Shown here: positions 12,559-18,620 of the stretch, piece after piece
Layout: the number at the start of each line of letters is the position of its first letter
How positions within the stretch are numbered: position 1 is the first letter of the stretch
Assembly: GCA_902385025.1 (NCBI GenBank)
Contig: CABMDX010000293.1
Coordinates: forward strand, 1-20,785
Length of the DNA: 20,785 nucleotides
Direction: 5' to 3'
Origin: an uncultured archaeon
GTDB lineage: Archaea > Halobacteriota > Methanosarcinia > Methanotrichales > Methanotrichaceae
Position numbers and translations under genes: made by a program
The notes under the pieces: model-generated
Databases searched by the model: none
What the model saw: the letters and a program-made list of their open reading frames with translations, nothing else
What the model was told of the DNA's origin: nothing

Positions 12559-13563
12559 TCACCCTTCAAGGCGCTCATAGATCTGCCTGATGGTGCTGTC
12601 ATTTTGCTCCCAGCAGTGCTTGTCCTGCCCTGTCAGCTTCTCGGGCTTACTATCCTTATAATTCCGAATGGCCTGCTCCATCTCCTCAGGATTGACCACG
12701 AACAGGTTCTTTCTCTTCTCTTCCGGAGAGATGCCGGTGGCGATGACTATCTTTCCCAGGCTCAGGTATTGATTGAGCTTCCAGATGCTTTTCTCTGTGG
12801 CATAAGGGGTTATTTCCGTCTCATCTGGAATTATGAGGCAGATCCGAGCCCGGCTCACCAGCTCTGCAACCTTCTGCTGGGGCTGCCAGCCAAAGAACCT
12901 GACGTTTTTCGGCATATTTCGCAGGTAAAATCTGGCAAATGGTCCGTCCCCCACAATCCAGAACCTCTCCTCTGGCATCTTTCTCGCCAGGCGGAGGAGG
13001 TTTCCGATTCCCTCCTGCCGGCTGATCCTGCCCACGAAGATTATGGCACCTTCGTCCTCCTTTGGCCGTTCAGCTCTGTCCTCTGTGTCTGCATAAGTCT
13101 GGAATTTCTTGGGCGGATAGTTGGGCACGATAAAGAGCGGTTTGTTCGAGCCTCCCGGATAGGAGGAGACCTTACGCCCCATGGGCTCATTGGGCGAGGT
13201 GAGGATATCGGCTCCCTCTGCCAGTTCATTCTCAAAGCCCTCGCAGATCTTTCTTGCCAGAGGGCCGAAGGTGATACCGGTCTCTATTGCCCAGGGCGAT
13301 CTGTAATCATATATCAGATGCCGGAAATATGGGCCTTTGAGCTTCGGCAGACCATGATAAATTAAATCCGGAACATTGAATAGGTGGACTGCGTCGGGCC
13401 GTTCCTTTTTCACGGCCTGCTTGACCCGCATGGCGATCGTTATCCAGTTTCTGGTTCCATAGAAAGGTACGACCACCTCATGGCCCTGGCTCTCCAGGGT
13501 CTTGCCGAAAAGCTTCAGTCTGGTGGTCTTCTCAGGCTGGTTGGCCAGCAGCAGGACTTTCAT
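12559..13563 (-). CDS. Glycosyltransferase (GT4-like, GT-B fold)
   Basis: A 334-residue glycosyltransferase with two Rossmann-like halves. The N-terminal acceptor domain begins MKVLLLANQPEKTTRLKLFG. The C-terminal nucleotide-sugar domain shows IIFVGRISRQEGIGNLLRLA, then FWIVGDGPFARFY and the region ATEKSIWKLNQYLSLGKIVIATGIS, typical of GT4-type retaining enzymes. No membrane segment is seen, so it probably acts at the cytoplasmic membrane face on a lipid-linked glycan. Its ATG overlaps the stop codon of the upstream dehydrogenase (ATGA), making it the last cistron of the six-gene sugar operon. It is the natural candidate to transfer the diacetamido-uronic acid made by that operon, though donor specificity is inferred. 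Confidence 0.87.
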   Translation of the reverse strand: MKVLLLANQPEKTTRLKLFGKTLESQGHEVVVPFYGTRNWITIAMRVKQAVKKERPDAVHLFNVPDLIYHGLPKLKGPYFRHLIYDYRSPWAIETGITFGPLARKICEGFENELAEGADILTSPNEPMGRKVSSYPGGSNKPLFIVPNYPPKKFQTYADTEDRAERPKEDEGAIIFVGRISRQEGIGNLLRLARKMPEERFWIVGDGPFARFYLRNMPKNVRFFGWQPQQKVAELVSRARICLIIPDETEITPYATEKSIWKLNQYLSLGKIVIATGISPEEKRKNLFVVNPEEMEQAIRNYKDSKPEKLTGQDKHCWEQNDSTIRQIYERLEG

Positions 13564-14735
13564 GCTGTTTTTTCCCGTCCTCTGCTAAAATTTAAATCGA
13601 AGGGGTCAAAGATCAGATCGGCTTCTTCCGGCTCAATGAAGCGGAGGCCCTTTGCTGCTATCTCTTCAGGGCTTTGCAGCGGATCGGAGACATAAACATC
13701 CAGCCCCTTTTGCACCAGCAGCCTGGCCAGGGCCATGTTTCTGCTGTGATAGAACTCCTTTACGCAGGCGCGAAATGTGATGCCTCTGATGCATATCTTG
13801 ATCTTTGCAAGCGGTTTGTCGATCTTCAGGCACTGGCGCAGGACTTCCTCAGCCCAGTACTGAATCATCTCGTCGTTGACCTCCCGTGCTGTGCGAAGCA
13901 GCCGGCAATGGCTGAAGCTTTCCTGCTTCTCCATCTCTTTAATGAGAAACCAGGGATATACAGGAATGCAGTGGCCTCCCACACCTGTGGAAGGCAGATG
14001 GATATGACAGTATTGATGGTTGGCATATTCCCTGGCCTCGAAGAAGTCGATGTCCATATCTTTGGCAATCTTGAGCAGCTCATTTGCCAGAGCTACATTC
14101 ACATCCCTGTAGCAGCCCTCCATGACCTTGATCATCTCTGCCACCCTGGCCGAGGAGACAAGATGCAGATTGGGGATGAACCTCGTATAGACCTGAAAGG
14201 CTTTCTGGCCGCTCTCTTCATCGGTGCCTCCGATTACTTTGGGAAACTCCCTCAGCCTGGAAAGGCTATAGCCCGTCATGATCCTCTCCGGGGAATAGGC
14301 AAGCGAGAAGTCCTCCTTTTCGAGGCCGCTGGATTGGCATAGCCAGCTCCTGACAGGCCCATCTGTTGTGCCTGGCGGAAAGGTGGTCTCCAGGACTACG
14401 AGATCTCCCTTTTTAAGGATCTTGCCAAGGCTTTTCAGGGCCTTTTCCATAATGGTGAAGTCGGGGTTCGCGCTCTGGTCCACGAAGAGTGGCACTATCA
14501 CTATGAAGGTGCGGCAGACGGCGGCGTCCTGGAAGTTTGATGTGGCTACCAGTTCCTTCCCTCCATGCTGAGCTATCAGCTCCTCAAGGCCCTCCTCCTC
14601 GGGAATGGGGTTTATCCCCTGGTTTATGAGACGGCAAAGCTCCTCGTTTATGTCCACGCCCATGACCTTGATGCCGCTGTCAGCCGCAACGGCTGCCAGT
14701 GGCAGCCCGGCTTTGCCAATGCCTATGATCGCGAT
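13560..14735 (-). CDS. wbpA: UDP-N-acetyl sugar 6-dehydrogenase (WbpA/WecC type) with no canonical start
   Basis: NAD-dependent four-electron oxidation of a UDP-HexNAc to the uronic acid. Visible motifs are IAIIGIGKAGLPLAAV (NAD Rossmann loop), MGVDIN, YSPERIMTGYS, EGCYRDVNVALANEL and the catalytic cysteine in GVGGHCIPVYPWF. The first ATG in frame (14663) lies after the NAD loop and would delete it. Upstream the frame is open to 14762, just after an in-frame TAG, but contains no ATG, GTG or TTG. The end given here, 14735, is an ATC codon that would yield a normal N-terminus; GAGG lies 11 bases before it. Alternatives are a +1 frameshift from the acetyltransferase, or a sequence error. The C-terminal domain is shorter than usual. 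The stop overlaps the glycosyltransferase start. Confidence 0.85.
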   Translation of the reverse strand: MAIIGIGKAGLPLAAVAADSGIKVMGVDINEELCRLINQGINPIPEEEGLEELIAQHGGKELVATSNFQDAAVCRTFIVIVPLFVDQSANPDFTIMEKALKSLGKILKKGDLVVLETTFPPGTTDGPVRSWLCQSSGLEKEDFSLAYSPERIMTGYSLSRLREFPKVIGGTDEESGQKAFQVYTRFIPNLHLVSSARVAEMIKVMEGCYRDVNVALANELLKIAKDMDIDFFEAREYANHQYCHIHLPSTGVGGHCIPVYPWFLIKEMEKQESFSHCRLLRTAREVNDEMIQYWAEEVLRQCLKIDKPLAKIKICIRGITFRACVKEFYHSRNMALARLLVQKGLDVYVSDPLQSPEEIAAKGLRFIEPEEADLIFDPFDLNFSRGREKTA

Positions 14736-14754
14736 CTCCGCTTTATCCTCAGAC

Positions 14755-15339
14755 TTATCTCGCTACCTTCCTTATCTGGACTTCCTTTCCGCAGGCTTTG
14801 CACTGATAGACCATTGCCTTTGAATCCTCTCTTTTTGGTTCTCTCAGTCTTTGGCCGCAGTAGCAGACCCATCCCTTCAGCCCGGCTGGATTTCCAGTGA
14901 CCAGAGCAAAAGGCGGCACATCCTCGGCCACCACGGACCCTGCACCGATGAGGGCATACTCTCCCACGGTAATGCCGCAGACAAGCGTTGCATTGGCGCC
15001 GATGCTCGCGCCCCTGCAGATGCGAGTAATAGCCACACGCCCCTCATCCCAGATGAATGCCCGCGGGTAGAGGTCATTGGTGAAGGTGGCGGAAGGGCCT
15101 ATGAAGACATCATCCTCGATGGTTACACCATTATAAACGGATACAAAGTTCTGGATCTTGACATTATTGCCGATCAACGCACCCGCATCAACATAAACGC
15201 TCTTTCCGATATTGCAGTTCATTCCGATTTCTGCGCCCATTCGCACATGGGCAAAGTGCCAGATCCGGGTACCATCCCCAATCTTATCGCTCTCAACAAC
15301 TGCCGTGGAATGGGCATAGAAGCTCTTTTGGCAATTCAT
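14755..15339 (-). CDS. wbpD: UDP-2-acetamido-3-amino-glucuronate N-acetyltransferase (WbpD/WlbB type)
   Basis: A 194-residue left-handed beta-helix enzyme built of hexapeptide repeats (for example IGDGTR, IGMNCN, IGNNVK, IEDDVF, IGANAT, IGAGSV). The motif PSATFTNDLYPRA with N88 is the signature of WlbB/WbpD, which acetylate the 3-amino group of UDP-GlcNAc3NA using acetyl-CoA. After the helix comes GNPAGLKGWVCYCG and a CKACG pair, a small zinc-ribbon-like C-terminal addition found in this subgroup. ATG 15339 starts six bases after the oxidoreductase stop. The C-terminus (KVAR then TAA) overlaps the open frame of the dehydrogenase, which matters for that gene's missing start. Confidence 0.88.
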   Translation of the reverse strand: MNCQKSFYAHSTAVVESDKIGDGTRIWHFAHVRMGAEIGMNCNIGKSVYVDAGALIGNNVKIQNFVSVYNGVTIEDDVFIGPSATFTNDLYPRAFIWDEGRVAITRICRGASIGANATLVCGITVGEYALIGAGSVVAEDVPPFALVTGNPAGLKGWVCYCGQRLREPKREDSKAMVYQCKACGKEVQIRKVAR

Positions 15340-15345
15340 GCTCTC

Positions 15346-16284
15346 TCACTTCCCTGGTCTGGAGCCCATTTTTATATGCAGCCCGGATTTAATCTGGTCG
15401 CAGATCCTCAGGTTCTTCAGGGCTTCGTCGGGTGTGACAGGGAAGCTCTTGCCGCTCCGAACGCAGTCCAGGAATGTCTTCAGCTCCACTTTCAGAGGCT
15501 CCACCTTATTGACCAGCACCTTCTCGATGATGTTCTCCTGCGTATAGCGCTCGTTTTCCACACCGTATTTGCCGGGCTTTCGGTAGATGTAGACTTCCTG
15601 AGTCATGAAGTCCCCTTCTGCCGTGAAGTCCTCTGCCTCGACATAGAAGGTTCGAAACTTCTTGGAGGATAGGCGGCTGGCCGATATGGCCACCACGGAA
15701 TCGCAAAAGACCGCCAGGGCTTCGCAGACATTGCCGCTTCCTGCGCTATGGATCTTGAGGGCTTCCTCGCCTGGGAAGAGAACATTGAAGACTATATCGA
15801 TATCATGGATCATGAGGTCTTCAACCACAGAGGCATCTGTGATGCGGCTTGATGTGGGGTTATGCCTCTTGATTGATACGTAGTCTGGCCTTGCGGCGAT
15901 CTTCTTGATCTCCTGCACGATTGGGTTGAACCTCTCGATATGGCCCACACCGACAACAATATCCTTTCTGCGAAGGATCGCCAGGAGCTCCTCGCCTTCC
16001 TTGACCGTGAGGGTGATGGGCTTTTCGATGAGGCAGCTCTTGCCCATGGCGATTGCCCTTTTGGCGGTCTCAAAATGATATTTGGTGGGCGTACAGATGC
16101 TGACCGCATCAACCATTTGCAGCAGTTCATCCTGTGAGCTGCAGATTGTGGCCAGGTCTCTGGCCCGCTCTGCGTTCTTTTGGAGCGGATCATAAACAAA
16201 AAGTCTGTCTACTCCTTTCAGCTCTGAGTAGACGCGCAAATGATTTCGGCCCATGGTGCCGACGCCTATTATACCGACATCCAT
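15346..16284 (-). CDS. wbpB: Gfo/Idh/MocA oxidoreductase, UDP-GlcNAcA 3-dehydrogenase type (WbpB-like)
   Basis: A 312-residue oxidoreductase with an N-terminal NAD-binding fold (VGIIGVGTMGRNHLRVY), the family motif EKPITLT containing the catalytic-region lysine, GVGHIERFNP, and MIHDIDIVF in the substrate domain. In the diacetamido-uronic acid pathway this enzyme oxidises C3 of UDP-GlcNAc uronic acid so the aminotransferase can install an amine; characterised homologues recycle NADH with 2-oxoglutarate. GAGGT lies about eight bases before ATG 16284, inside the spacer after the aminotransferase stop (3-base gap). Its stop is six bases before the acetyltransferase. The assignment to WbpB rather than another sugar dehydrogenase rests on operon context. 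Confidence 0.85.
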   Translation of the reverse strand: MDVGIIGVGTMGRNHLRVYSELKGVDRLFVYDPLQKNAERARDLATICSSQDELLQMVDAVSICTPTKYHFETAKRAIAMGKSCLIEKPITLTVKEGEELLAILRRKDIVVGVGHIERFNPIVQEIKKIAARPDYVSIKRHNPTSSRITDASVVEDLMIHDIDIVFNVLFPGEEALKIHSAGSGNVCEALAVFCDSVVAISASRLSSKKFRTFYVEAEDFTAEGDFMTQEVYIYRKPGKYGVENERYTQENIIEKVLVNKVEPLKVELKTFLDCVRSGKSFPVTPDEALKNLRICDQIKSGLHIKMGSRPGK

Positions 16285-16287
16285 GCC

Positions 16288-17391
16288 TCAGACCTCGAAG
16301 CCGTTCAGGGTATCTGCTATGTATTGAATTTGCTCTCTGGAGAGGGATGGATGAACGGGCAGGCTCAACACCTTTCGAGAGACATCTTCTGCCACGGGGC
16401 ACTTCTCCCTGCCGTATCCAAGATCGCGGTAGAGAGGCTGCTCGTATACGGCTTTGGGATAGTGCACAGCCGATCCGATTCCCCTGTCCTGCAGGTAATC
16501 CGTCAGCCTTTCTCTTGAAGCGGGAAAGTCGTCTTCCACCCTGACCACGTACTGGTGATAGACATGGCGCACATCCTTTGAACGGTATGGCGGGGTGATG
16601 CCCTTCGCCTTTATCGACAGATAGAGCATTGCTGCGTTGTCGATCCTTTTGGCGGTGAACTCCTCGAGCTTTTGAAGCTGCACGAGACCTATGGCTGCCT
16701 GAATATTCATCATTCTATAGTTGTAGCCCAGAGACACGTGATTGTATTTTCCCTCATCGCCGTGATTGCGCAGCAGGCGCAGCCTGGCAGCCAGAGCATC
16801 ATCATTGGTGGTGATCATGCCGCCCTCGCCTGTTGTCATGTTCTTGGTAGGGTAAAAGGAGAAGCAGCCAATGCCTGTTGAACCCACCTTCTTTCCCTGA
16901 TACTCTGCCCCATGGGCCTGGGCGCAGTCCTCTACCAATGCCAGATTATGGTCTTCGCAGATCTGCGAGACTGCCTTGAGGTCGAAGGGCTGGCCATAAA
17001 GGTGCACGCCGACAACCGCCCGTGTTTTGGGCGTGATCTTGCCTGCCAGATCATCGGGATCGATGTTGAAAGTCCTCGGATCCACATCGGCAAAAACCGG
17101 CTTAAGGCCCTGATAGAGAGCGCAGTTGGCAGTGGCGATGAAGGTGAAGGCAGGTGATATGACCTCGTCTCCTGGCTGAAGGTTTAGGCCTTTCAGAGCC
17201 AGGTCCAGGGCAATGGTGCCGTTGCTCACAGCAATGGAATCCCTCACGCCCAGGTACTCTGAGAACTCCTCCTCAAAACGCTTGACTTGCTCACCCTGGG
17301 TGAGCATGCCTGACCTCAGCACCCGAGAGACCGCTTCGATCTCTTCATTCCCAATTATGGGCCTGGCTATGGGAATAAAATCTCTCATCAT
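16288..17391 (-). CDS. wbpE: DegT/DnrJ/EryC1 sugar aminotransferase (WbpE-like)
   Basis: A 367-residue PLP-dependent aminotransferase. The PLP lysine is in FYPTKNMTTGEGGM, preceded by VEDCAQAHGA, whose Asp holds the pyridine nitrogen, and by GTIALDLALKGL; this is the standard DegT fold at standard length. It should transfer the glutamate amino group to the 3-keto UDP-sugar made by the neighbouring oxidoreductase. The start is taken as ATG 17391 (ATG 17388 follows it directly); an in-frame extension to 17472 runs into the upstream gene and is not family-like. No strong ribosome site is visible. The gap to the GlmU-like gene upstream is 29 bases and to the oxidoreductase downstream 3 bases. Confidence 0.9.
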   Translation of the reverse strand: MMRDFIPIARPIIGNEEIEAVSRVLRSGMLTQGEQVKRFEEEFSEYLGVRDSIAVSNGTIALDLALKGLNLQPGDEVISPAFTFIATANCALYQGLKPVFADVDPRTFNIDPDDLAGKITPKTRAVVGVHLYGQPFDLKAVSQICEDHNLALVEDCAQAHGAEYQGKKVGSTGIGCFSFYPTKNMTTGEGGMITTNDDALAARLRLLRNHGDEGKYNHVSLGYNYRMMNIQAAIGLVQLQKLEEFTAKRIDNAAMLYLSIKAKGITPPYRSKDVRHVYHQYVVRVEDDFPASRERLTDYLQDRGIGSAVHYPKAVYEQPLYRDLGYGREKCPVAEDVSRKVLSLPVHPSLSREQIQYIADTLNGFEV

Positions 17392-17420
17392 TTTATTCTT
17401 GTCTTTCGCCTTGAAAAGGC

Positions 17421-18620
17421 TTATTGTTTGGAAATGACCAGGCCTTTTAAAGTCGCTGCTGGCAGACCCCAAAATCCGGATTCGATGACAGTACCGGTAT
17501 AAATTGTGGTATTGATGCCCGTCCTACAATCATCTCCCATGATGGCGCCGAGCTTGCGTCTGCCGCTATCCACTCTCTCTCCCTTGATGAATGATTTGAT
17601 GTTTGACTTGTCATGGCGCAGATTGGAGCAGATGGTGCCTGCTCCAAAATTGCATCTCTCTCCTATGATGCTGTCTCCGACATAAGAAAGGTGGCCTATC
17701 TTTGTGCCGTTCATGATGGCGCTGTTTTTGACCTCCACAGCATTGCCCACGCGCACATCATCGCCTATGCAGGTTGTGGCCCGGATGAAGCAGTTGGGGC
17801 CAATGTCGCAATTCCCGCCAATCAGAACAGGGCCGATGATGTAGGCTCCGGAGCGAATGATTGTGCCCTCGCCGATGGACACATCTCCTTTCAGGACTGC
17901 GCCGGGCTCGATCTCTCCTCGGATTTCGGGCTTTGTGTCTTTGAGCAGGAACTCGTTTGCGGCAAGGATATCCCAGGGCCTGCCGATTTCCAGCCAATTT
18001 TTGAGCGTGACGATTCCAACCTTCTCCTGCGTGGCAAGCAGGTTCAGGCCGTCCGTCAGCTCGTACTCGCCCCGCTCAGATAGCGGCACAGCGCGCATGG
18101 CCTCAAAGATGCTTCTGCTGAAATGGTAGATGCCGGCGTTTGCAAGGTTTGATGGCGGCTTCTGGCTCTTCTCAACCACGGATCTGAAGATGCCGTTTTC
18201 CTGTAGGAAGACGCCGTATCTCTGGGGATCGGAGACCTCGATGGCAGAGACGGCATTGCCGGCGCAGGCCATGGACCGCAGGGCCTCTGCATCGGGAAGC
18301 ACATCTCCGTTCAGAACCATGAATCGATCCTCTGCCTTATCTTCTGCCGCCATGAGGGCATGGCCCGTGCCCATCTGCTTATCCTGAATCGCGTATTCTA
18401 TCTTCACACCCAGGCGGCTGCCGTCGCCGAAGTGGGAGCGGACATATTCTGCGCCGTATCCTACTACGATTACAAAGCTGTCCAGGCCCGCAGCCTGCGC
18501 CCTCTGGACGATATGCTCCAGAAATGGCTTTCCTGCTACGGGAAGCATGACCTTGGGGCGGCGGGCGGTCAGGGGGCGCATCCTGCTGCCTTCACCTGCG
18601 GCGAGAACTATTGCTTGCAT
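17421..18620 (-). CDS. glmU: GlmU-like bifunctional sugar-1-phosphate nucleotidylyltransferase/acetyltransferase
   Basis: A 399-residue two-domain enzyme. Residues 1 to about 235 are the nucleotidyltransferase, with the signature LAAGEGSRMRPLT, then KVMLPVAGKP, QMGTGHAL and LNGDVLPD for the metal and nucleotide. From about 245 a left-handed beta helix follows (IEPGAVLKGDVSIGEGTIIRSG) through SYVGDSIIGERCNFGAGT and NLRHDKSNIK to the C-terminus, matching archaeal GlmU-type proteins that acetylate GlcN-1-P and join it to UTP. The product UDP-GlcNAc is the precursor for the four enzymes downstream. ATG 18620 is the operon's first start codon; a TATA-like element and an inverted repeat lie upstream. 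Confidence 0.9.
   Translation of the reverse strand: MQAIVLAAGEGSRMRPLTARRPKVMLPVAGKPFLEHIVQRAQAAGLDSFVIVVGYGAEYVRSHFGDGSRLGVKIEYAIQDKQMGTGHALMAAEDKAEDRFMVLNGDVLPDAEALRSMACAGNAVSAIEVSDPQRYGVFLQENGIFRSVVEKSQKPPSNLANAGIYHFSRSIFEAMRAVPLSERGEYELTDGLNLLATQEKVGIVTLKNWLEIGRPWDILAANEFLLKDTKPEIRGEIEPGAVLKGDVSIGEGTIIRSGAYIIGPVLIGGNCDIGPNCFIRATTCIGDDVRVGNAVEVKNSAIMNGTKIGHLSYVGDSIIGERCNFGAGTICSNLRHDKSNIKSFIKGERVDSGRRKLGAIMGDDCRTGINTTIYTGTVIESGFWGLPAATLKGLVISKQ

Follow-up and report, generated by a model that had tools for sequence, protein, structure and literature searches.

The nucleotide sugar dehydrogenase gene in the window, the whole stretch of 20,785 nucleotides analysed here, belongs to a surface-sugar operon and is an ordinary gene with ATG as its start in the genus; the missing start in the draft most likely comes from a base error, which makes the finding ordinary. 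The AAG codon that occupies the start site would, at a probability of about two in three, be a wrong consensus base in a fragmentary draft, with the living organism starting the protein normally. The window corresponds to contig C293 in a draft genome, 78.6% complete, whose 390 contigs add up to 2,278,623 bases, and the source organism is a Methanothrix-like methanogen. That the change at 14755 represents an error, and not a mutation of the living organism, is the most likely reading of the alignment with relatives, of the privacy of the change and of the further private lesions that this assembly carries. The features concerned are collected in Table 1.

Table 1. Positions of the dehydrogenase start region and of the neighbouring genes in the window.
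Feature	Position	Strand	Basis
Sugar-1-phosphate nucleotidylyltransferase/acetyltransferase (archaeal GlmU subfamily)	17421..18620	-	ORF, profile
Aminotransferase, upstream in cluster; ORF as listed, true start may be further in	16288..17472	-	ORF, profile
Oxidoreductase, upstream in cluster; best model UDP-N-acetylglucosamine 3-dehydrogenase, under its cut-off	15346..16284	-	ORF, profile
Hexapeptide-repeat sugar acetyltransferase; TAA 14757-14755, two codons before TGA of overlapping-gene relatives	14755..15339	-	ORF, profile, alignment
GGAAGG, ribosome-binding-like block, 9 nt before AAG codon	14766..14771	-	Script
In-frame TAG upstream of dehydrogenase frame	14763..14765	-	Sequence reading
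AAG codon, site of ATG start in 18/24 relative copies	14754..14756	-	Alignment with relatives
Nucleotide sugar (UDP-sugar) dehydrogenase frame, AAG to TGA	13560..14756	-	ORF and profile matches
Shorter dehydrogenase ORF from first in-frame ATG, without first part of NAD-binding domain	13560..14663	-	ORF list, Pfam
Glycosyltransferase-like gene, downstream; overlaps dehydrogenase stop as ATGA	12559..13563	-	ORF, profile

On the minus strand the in-frame TAG is followed by the codons CGA GAT AAG TCT GAG GAT AAA GCG GAG ATC GCG ATC ATA GGC (RDKSEDKAEIAIIG). As the sequence-only reading had claimed, neither inspection by eye nor a script found an in-frame ATG, GTG or TTG between this stop, which the script places 10 codons ahead of the motif's first isoleucine (ATC 14735), and the NAD-binding motif IAIIGIGKAGLP. 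The frame is open from 14762 to a TGA at 13562-13560 with no internal stop, and is 70-79% identical to its relatives. The first in-frame ATG lies at 14663, where the mechanical list of open reading frames begins the gene. The ORF from that position enters the PF03721 profile only at position 28 whereas the full frame enters it at position 2, and hence the shorter ORF loses the NAD loop, a consequence for automatic annotation that had been correctly foreseen; SEDKAEIAIIGIGK is a stretch within the full-length N-terminus.

The identity of the enzyme is supported by a score of 297.4 bits against the NCBIfam model TIGR03026 (nucleotide sugar dehydrogenase), which exceeds the curated cut-off of 189.8, and by matches to both the NAD-binding domain PF03721 (109 bits) and the central domain PF00984 (71.6 bits). 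Pfam reported no C-terminal domain of the family for this frame at E 0.001, and two models for UDP-N-acetyl-D-mannosamine dehydrogenase scored below their curated cut-offs (NF040825, 216.3 of 750 bits; NF008286, 222.5 of 459 bits). The gene belongs to a tightly packed minus-strand operon in which nucleotidylyltransferase, aminotransferase, oxidoreductase, acetyltransferase, dehydrogenase and glycosyltransferase follow in that order. Apart from this gene, the genome yields only one match to the enzyme, a distant paralogue with 29% identity that is closest to the UDP-glucose 6-dehydrogenase AglM, and the dehydrogenase gene is therefore single.

What do the relatives carry at this site? The named relatives are metagenome drafts labelled Methanothrix or Methanosaeta, with two assigned only by family or order. 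The set searched comprised 26 genomes of the genus, and the dehydrogenase was found in 25 of them, the window's own included. One copy cut by a contig end (G009) was left out, one genome (G022) contributes two copies, and a copy reported in two pieces (G006) was counted once, such that the sample consists of 24 copies, from 23 genomes other than the window's, in which the start can be read. All 24 have an ATG between 2 and 11 codons before the motif's first isoleucine, and in 18 it lies exactly 7 codons before that residue, at the codon that corresponds to AAG in the window; AAG itself occurs at the start site in none of the 24. The block GGAAGG stands 9 bases before the copy's own ATG in 13 of the 24 relatives (9 by script, 4 from printed lines). 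Ten loci of the named relatives with a visible start also have ATG throughout; judged by their junction DNA, these duplicate genomes already in the set and were left out of the counts. The sequence-only reading had itself named an ATG at the equivalent site in close relatives as the observation that would overturn its claim, and this is what the genus displays. A start-free run of about ten codons is not rare in itself; as judged from these alignments, it is the presence of ATG in all 24 relatives that makes the case.

The same comparison bears on the proposal that translation begins at ATC 14735, which had been put forward with a GAGG lying 11 bases upstream, or at some other codon nearer the motif. 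The GAGG is present at 14750-14747 with the spacing described, but it sits within the codons TCT GAG GA, which are coding in many relatives too, and the ATC is the codon of the motif's own first isoleucine, with an ATG upstream of it in every relative copy. Initiation at or near this ATC is accordingly extremely unlikely.

A second oddity lies at the same place, at the end of the acetyltransferase gene. In 8 of the 24 copies the acetyltransferase and dehydrogenase genes overlap by 8 bases (ATGTCTGA), and the last two residues before TGA in the overlapping acetyltransferases are Tyr-Val in 6 and Asp-Val in 2. The junction in the window reads GCG AGA TAA GTC TGA, while GAT TAT GTC TGA stands in the relative whose acetyltransferase is closest to the window's (L005/L021, 77%), so that TAA GTC TGA and TAT GTC TGA differ by a single base, at 14755. 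This one difference accounts both for the loss of the ATG and for the early TAA of the acetyltransferase, and the two oddities would most simply be the same event. The true start in the window's organism would then be an ATG at 14756-14754, 9 bases after GGAAGG, and the same wrong base would truncate the acetyltransferase by two codons, by placing TAA where a Tyr or Asp codon stands before GTC TGA in relatives. An indel in place of the substitution was also considered, in the form of a 2-base insertion into a CGAGATGTCTGAGG-like ancestor (as in L030); this is possible, but it is less economical in that the spacing would be 7 rather than 9 bases and the acetyltransferase would be without its (Y/D)V-TGA end. 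Among the explanations offered in the sequence-only reading, a sequencing error is thus the best supported, in the form of a base difference and not of the extra or missing base that had been envisaged.

The junction had also been suggested to permit a +1 slip at AGA-UAA-G that would yield an acetyltransferase-dehydrogenase fusion. The geometry of the frames allows for such a product, and an apparent +1 shift arrangement occurs elsewhere in the genus, at leuA. However, the acetyltransferase of the relatives terminates at its own stop codon, the dehydrogenase has its ATG in these relatives, and, measured from the acetyltransferase stop, the dehydrogenase start lies in all three possible frames, in 12, 5 and 7 of the 24 copies, with the window in the frame of the 12. 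A programmed +1 frameshift would be marked by a conserved shift site and by a conserved relative frame, whereas the relative frame differs among the 24 copies, and a fusion by this route is scarcely credible.

How plausible is a base error in this particular draft? To gauge this, 494 kb of the draft (81 of 390 contigs) was compared with ORFs from 1.2 Mb of the two-contig relative G001, which gave 158 aligned places, 115 starts and 39,838 aligned residues. Three conserved genes of the draft, otherwise intact, contain private stops that are missing from every other genus genome matched. The first is the gene for ribosomal protein L3, with an in-frame TAG at codon 23 (L071 2826-1825, contig C291) that is found in the draft only, among 22 matched genus genomes, with G025 not covering that part of the gene. 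Ribosomal protein L3 is taken to be essential and this is the only copy, which makes the TAG hard to credit as biology; it is probably a base error of the assembly. A reading of this TAG as pyrrolysine was rejected, as no match to pyrrolysyl-tRNA synthetase above cut-off was found in the incomplete draft. The second is a TAA in a gene that, from the look of its alignment, we take to be ferredoxin-thioredoxin-reductase/rubredoxin-like (L139 846-322, contig C20), present in 1 of 19 matched genomes, and the third is a TGA in a member of a repeat-protein family (L164 4118-4957, contig C25), for which the places listed in 24 genomes show no second stop. Together, the private stops in L3 and in the two other conserved genes make base errors likely in the draft, even if two of the three could be real mutations.

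These three events were reached by sorting the output by eye. Under the stricter filter the draft returned six rows with stops, of which those for L3 and the repeat protein were kept and four were dropped, namely two in a wrong frame on L151, one upstream of the likely start (L079) and one transposase-like at the edge of L173; the stop on L139 was flagged under a looser filter, was absent under the stricter one, and was added. The control direction, with G001, returned 13 rows with stops, 4 with starts and 2 with frameshifts; on inspection by eye its stop and start rows were put down to a wrong frame, to transposase-like sequence or to a position ahead of the real start. Frameshift rows show no excess in the draft (1, against 2 in G001). 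A hypothetical gene on the contig of the TAA lesion has an apparent frameshift (L139 1735-2260, contig C20).

Taking all three private stops as errors gives a rate of about 7e-4 per base (over the 39,838 residues, dropped places included), and at that rate the 115 starts should include approximately 0.19 lost ATGs, making one lost ATG unremarkable, though not predicted. In the draft, 5 of the 115 starts were flagged as lost. Two were rejected by eye as wrong-frame ORFs (L151:2198 and L131:1365), the leuA-like gene on L126 was set aside because its arrangement is shared across the genus, and a UPF0147-like gene (L151:10002) because the same ACG occurs in 9 of 22 genomes, which leaves the window dehydrogenase as the only private case. 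With a single private lost start, lost starts alone show no high error rate, and the argument rests instead upon the private stops.

The principal alternative to a consensus error is that the change is a real and recent start-loss mutation, through which the gene would be off or down, be it in the whole strain or in only some of the population, before further decay has had time to set in. In its favour, the change is private (0 of 24 relative copies), the remaining dehydrogenase frame is intact and the gene is single, the other match being the distant paralogue. Against this, the adjoining operon genes have open frames, the absence of the enzyme should disable the sugar pathway that it presumably serves, and the other private lesions of the assembly point to errors. 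Because the events are few and the rows were sorted by eye, the consensus error is held at the level given above, with a real start loss carrying appreciable weight as an unlikely alternative.

It is also conceivable that translation begins at a non-AUG codon, the AAG or another near-start codon, with the ribosome-binding block and coupling to the acetyltransferase stop directing the ribosome there. The GGAAGG block and its spacing are retained, and a precedent of a kind might be seen in the genus, where the UPF0147-like gene has ACG for ATG in 9 of 22 genomes, 3 of them without an upstream in-frame start; within that gene, however, an ATG stands at residue 18, and one family model begins at this residue. 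A conserved non-AUG start would require the absence of ATG, GTG and TTG to be shared, and no such shared absence was found among the 24 readable copies. The literature also disfavours the proposal: a bacterial study reports that IF3 tolerates nothing but Watson-Crick pairs at the first two codon bases (PMC10158994), and in archaea aIF1 is described as favouring discrimination against non-canonical starts (PMC6237735). A further paper (PMC9841429) gave general background only. Initiation at a near-start codon is on balance improbable. Its most specific form, that the change is real and that the Methanothrix ribosome starts at AAG with the RBS-like block and the overlapping stop overriding codon identity, is very doubtful.

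The small gene with the ACG (L180, contig C155, 10002-10271; L181-L201), presumably of the UPF0147 family, has this codon directly after GGTGATTCT, and the internal ATG offers an alternative start.

The leuA-like gene for 2-isopropylmalate synthase on contig C7 (L126 7690-9272), which is likewise without an in-frame start, came to light as a by-product. Matches were obtained in 23 genomes of the genus and the start region was read in 16 (loci L126, L115 and L202-L215). In 13 of these 16 the enzyme frame contains no ATG, GTG or TTG before IFDT, and in all 16 leaders a TTTATA box lies 28-31 bases before the ATG of a short ORF of 17-21 codons, the commonest form of which is MTHETSVGNRLLRRSFAC (5/16). 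The enzyme frame is +1 relative to this short ORF. Of the 26 genus genomes, 25 contain an exact copy of a 23-mer, GTGGGGAATCGTCTTCTACGACG, that spans two adjacent leucine codons of the short ORF, and none of 24 genomes from the family's other genera has it even when up to 2 mismatches are allowed, so that among the 50 genomes searched the apparent +1 arrangement seems confined to the genus. The placing of the short ORF makes it a candidate for a leaderless transcript, and the sequence CUU CUA C, with a slip at CUU-C inside the leucine pair CUU CUA, is a candidate site for a programmed +1 frameshift that would join the short ORF to leuA. A shortage of leucine could conceivably promote the slip. 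Four of 14 leaders were run against Rfam and gave one match, below the gathering score, and a limited search of the literature found nothing on frameshifting at leuA. This gene differs from the window dehydrogenase in that its arrangement is shared across the genus.

For the dehydrogenase there is little at stake beyond the warning that a gene caller would trim 31 residues and the NAD loop with them, and that where a draft is fragmentary an oddity of one base should be checked relative by relative. The leuA by-product matters more. If confirmed, it would mean that an archaeon controls leucine synthesis by a frameshift switch.

Set beside known systems, the window dehydrogenase resembles those described by TIGR03026, whose UDP-N-acetyl-sugar dehydrogenases we take to be of the WecC/WbpA kind, in that it adjoins an oxidoreductase, an aminotransferase and an acetyltransferase of a sugar pathway, and departs from them in having no start codon in the present assembly. 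In this latter respect it would be like the consensus errors of draft genomes, where a private single-base lesion lies in a gene that is otherwise intact and conserved, as with the private stop in the L3 gene of the same assembly.
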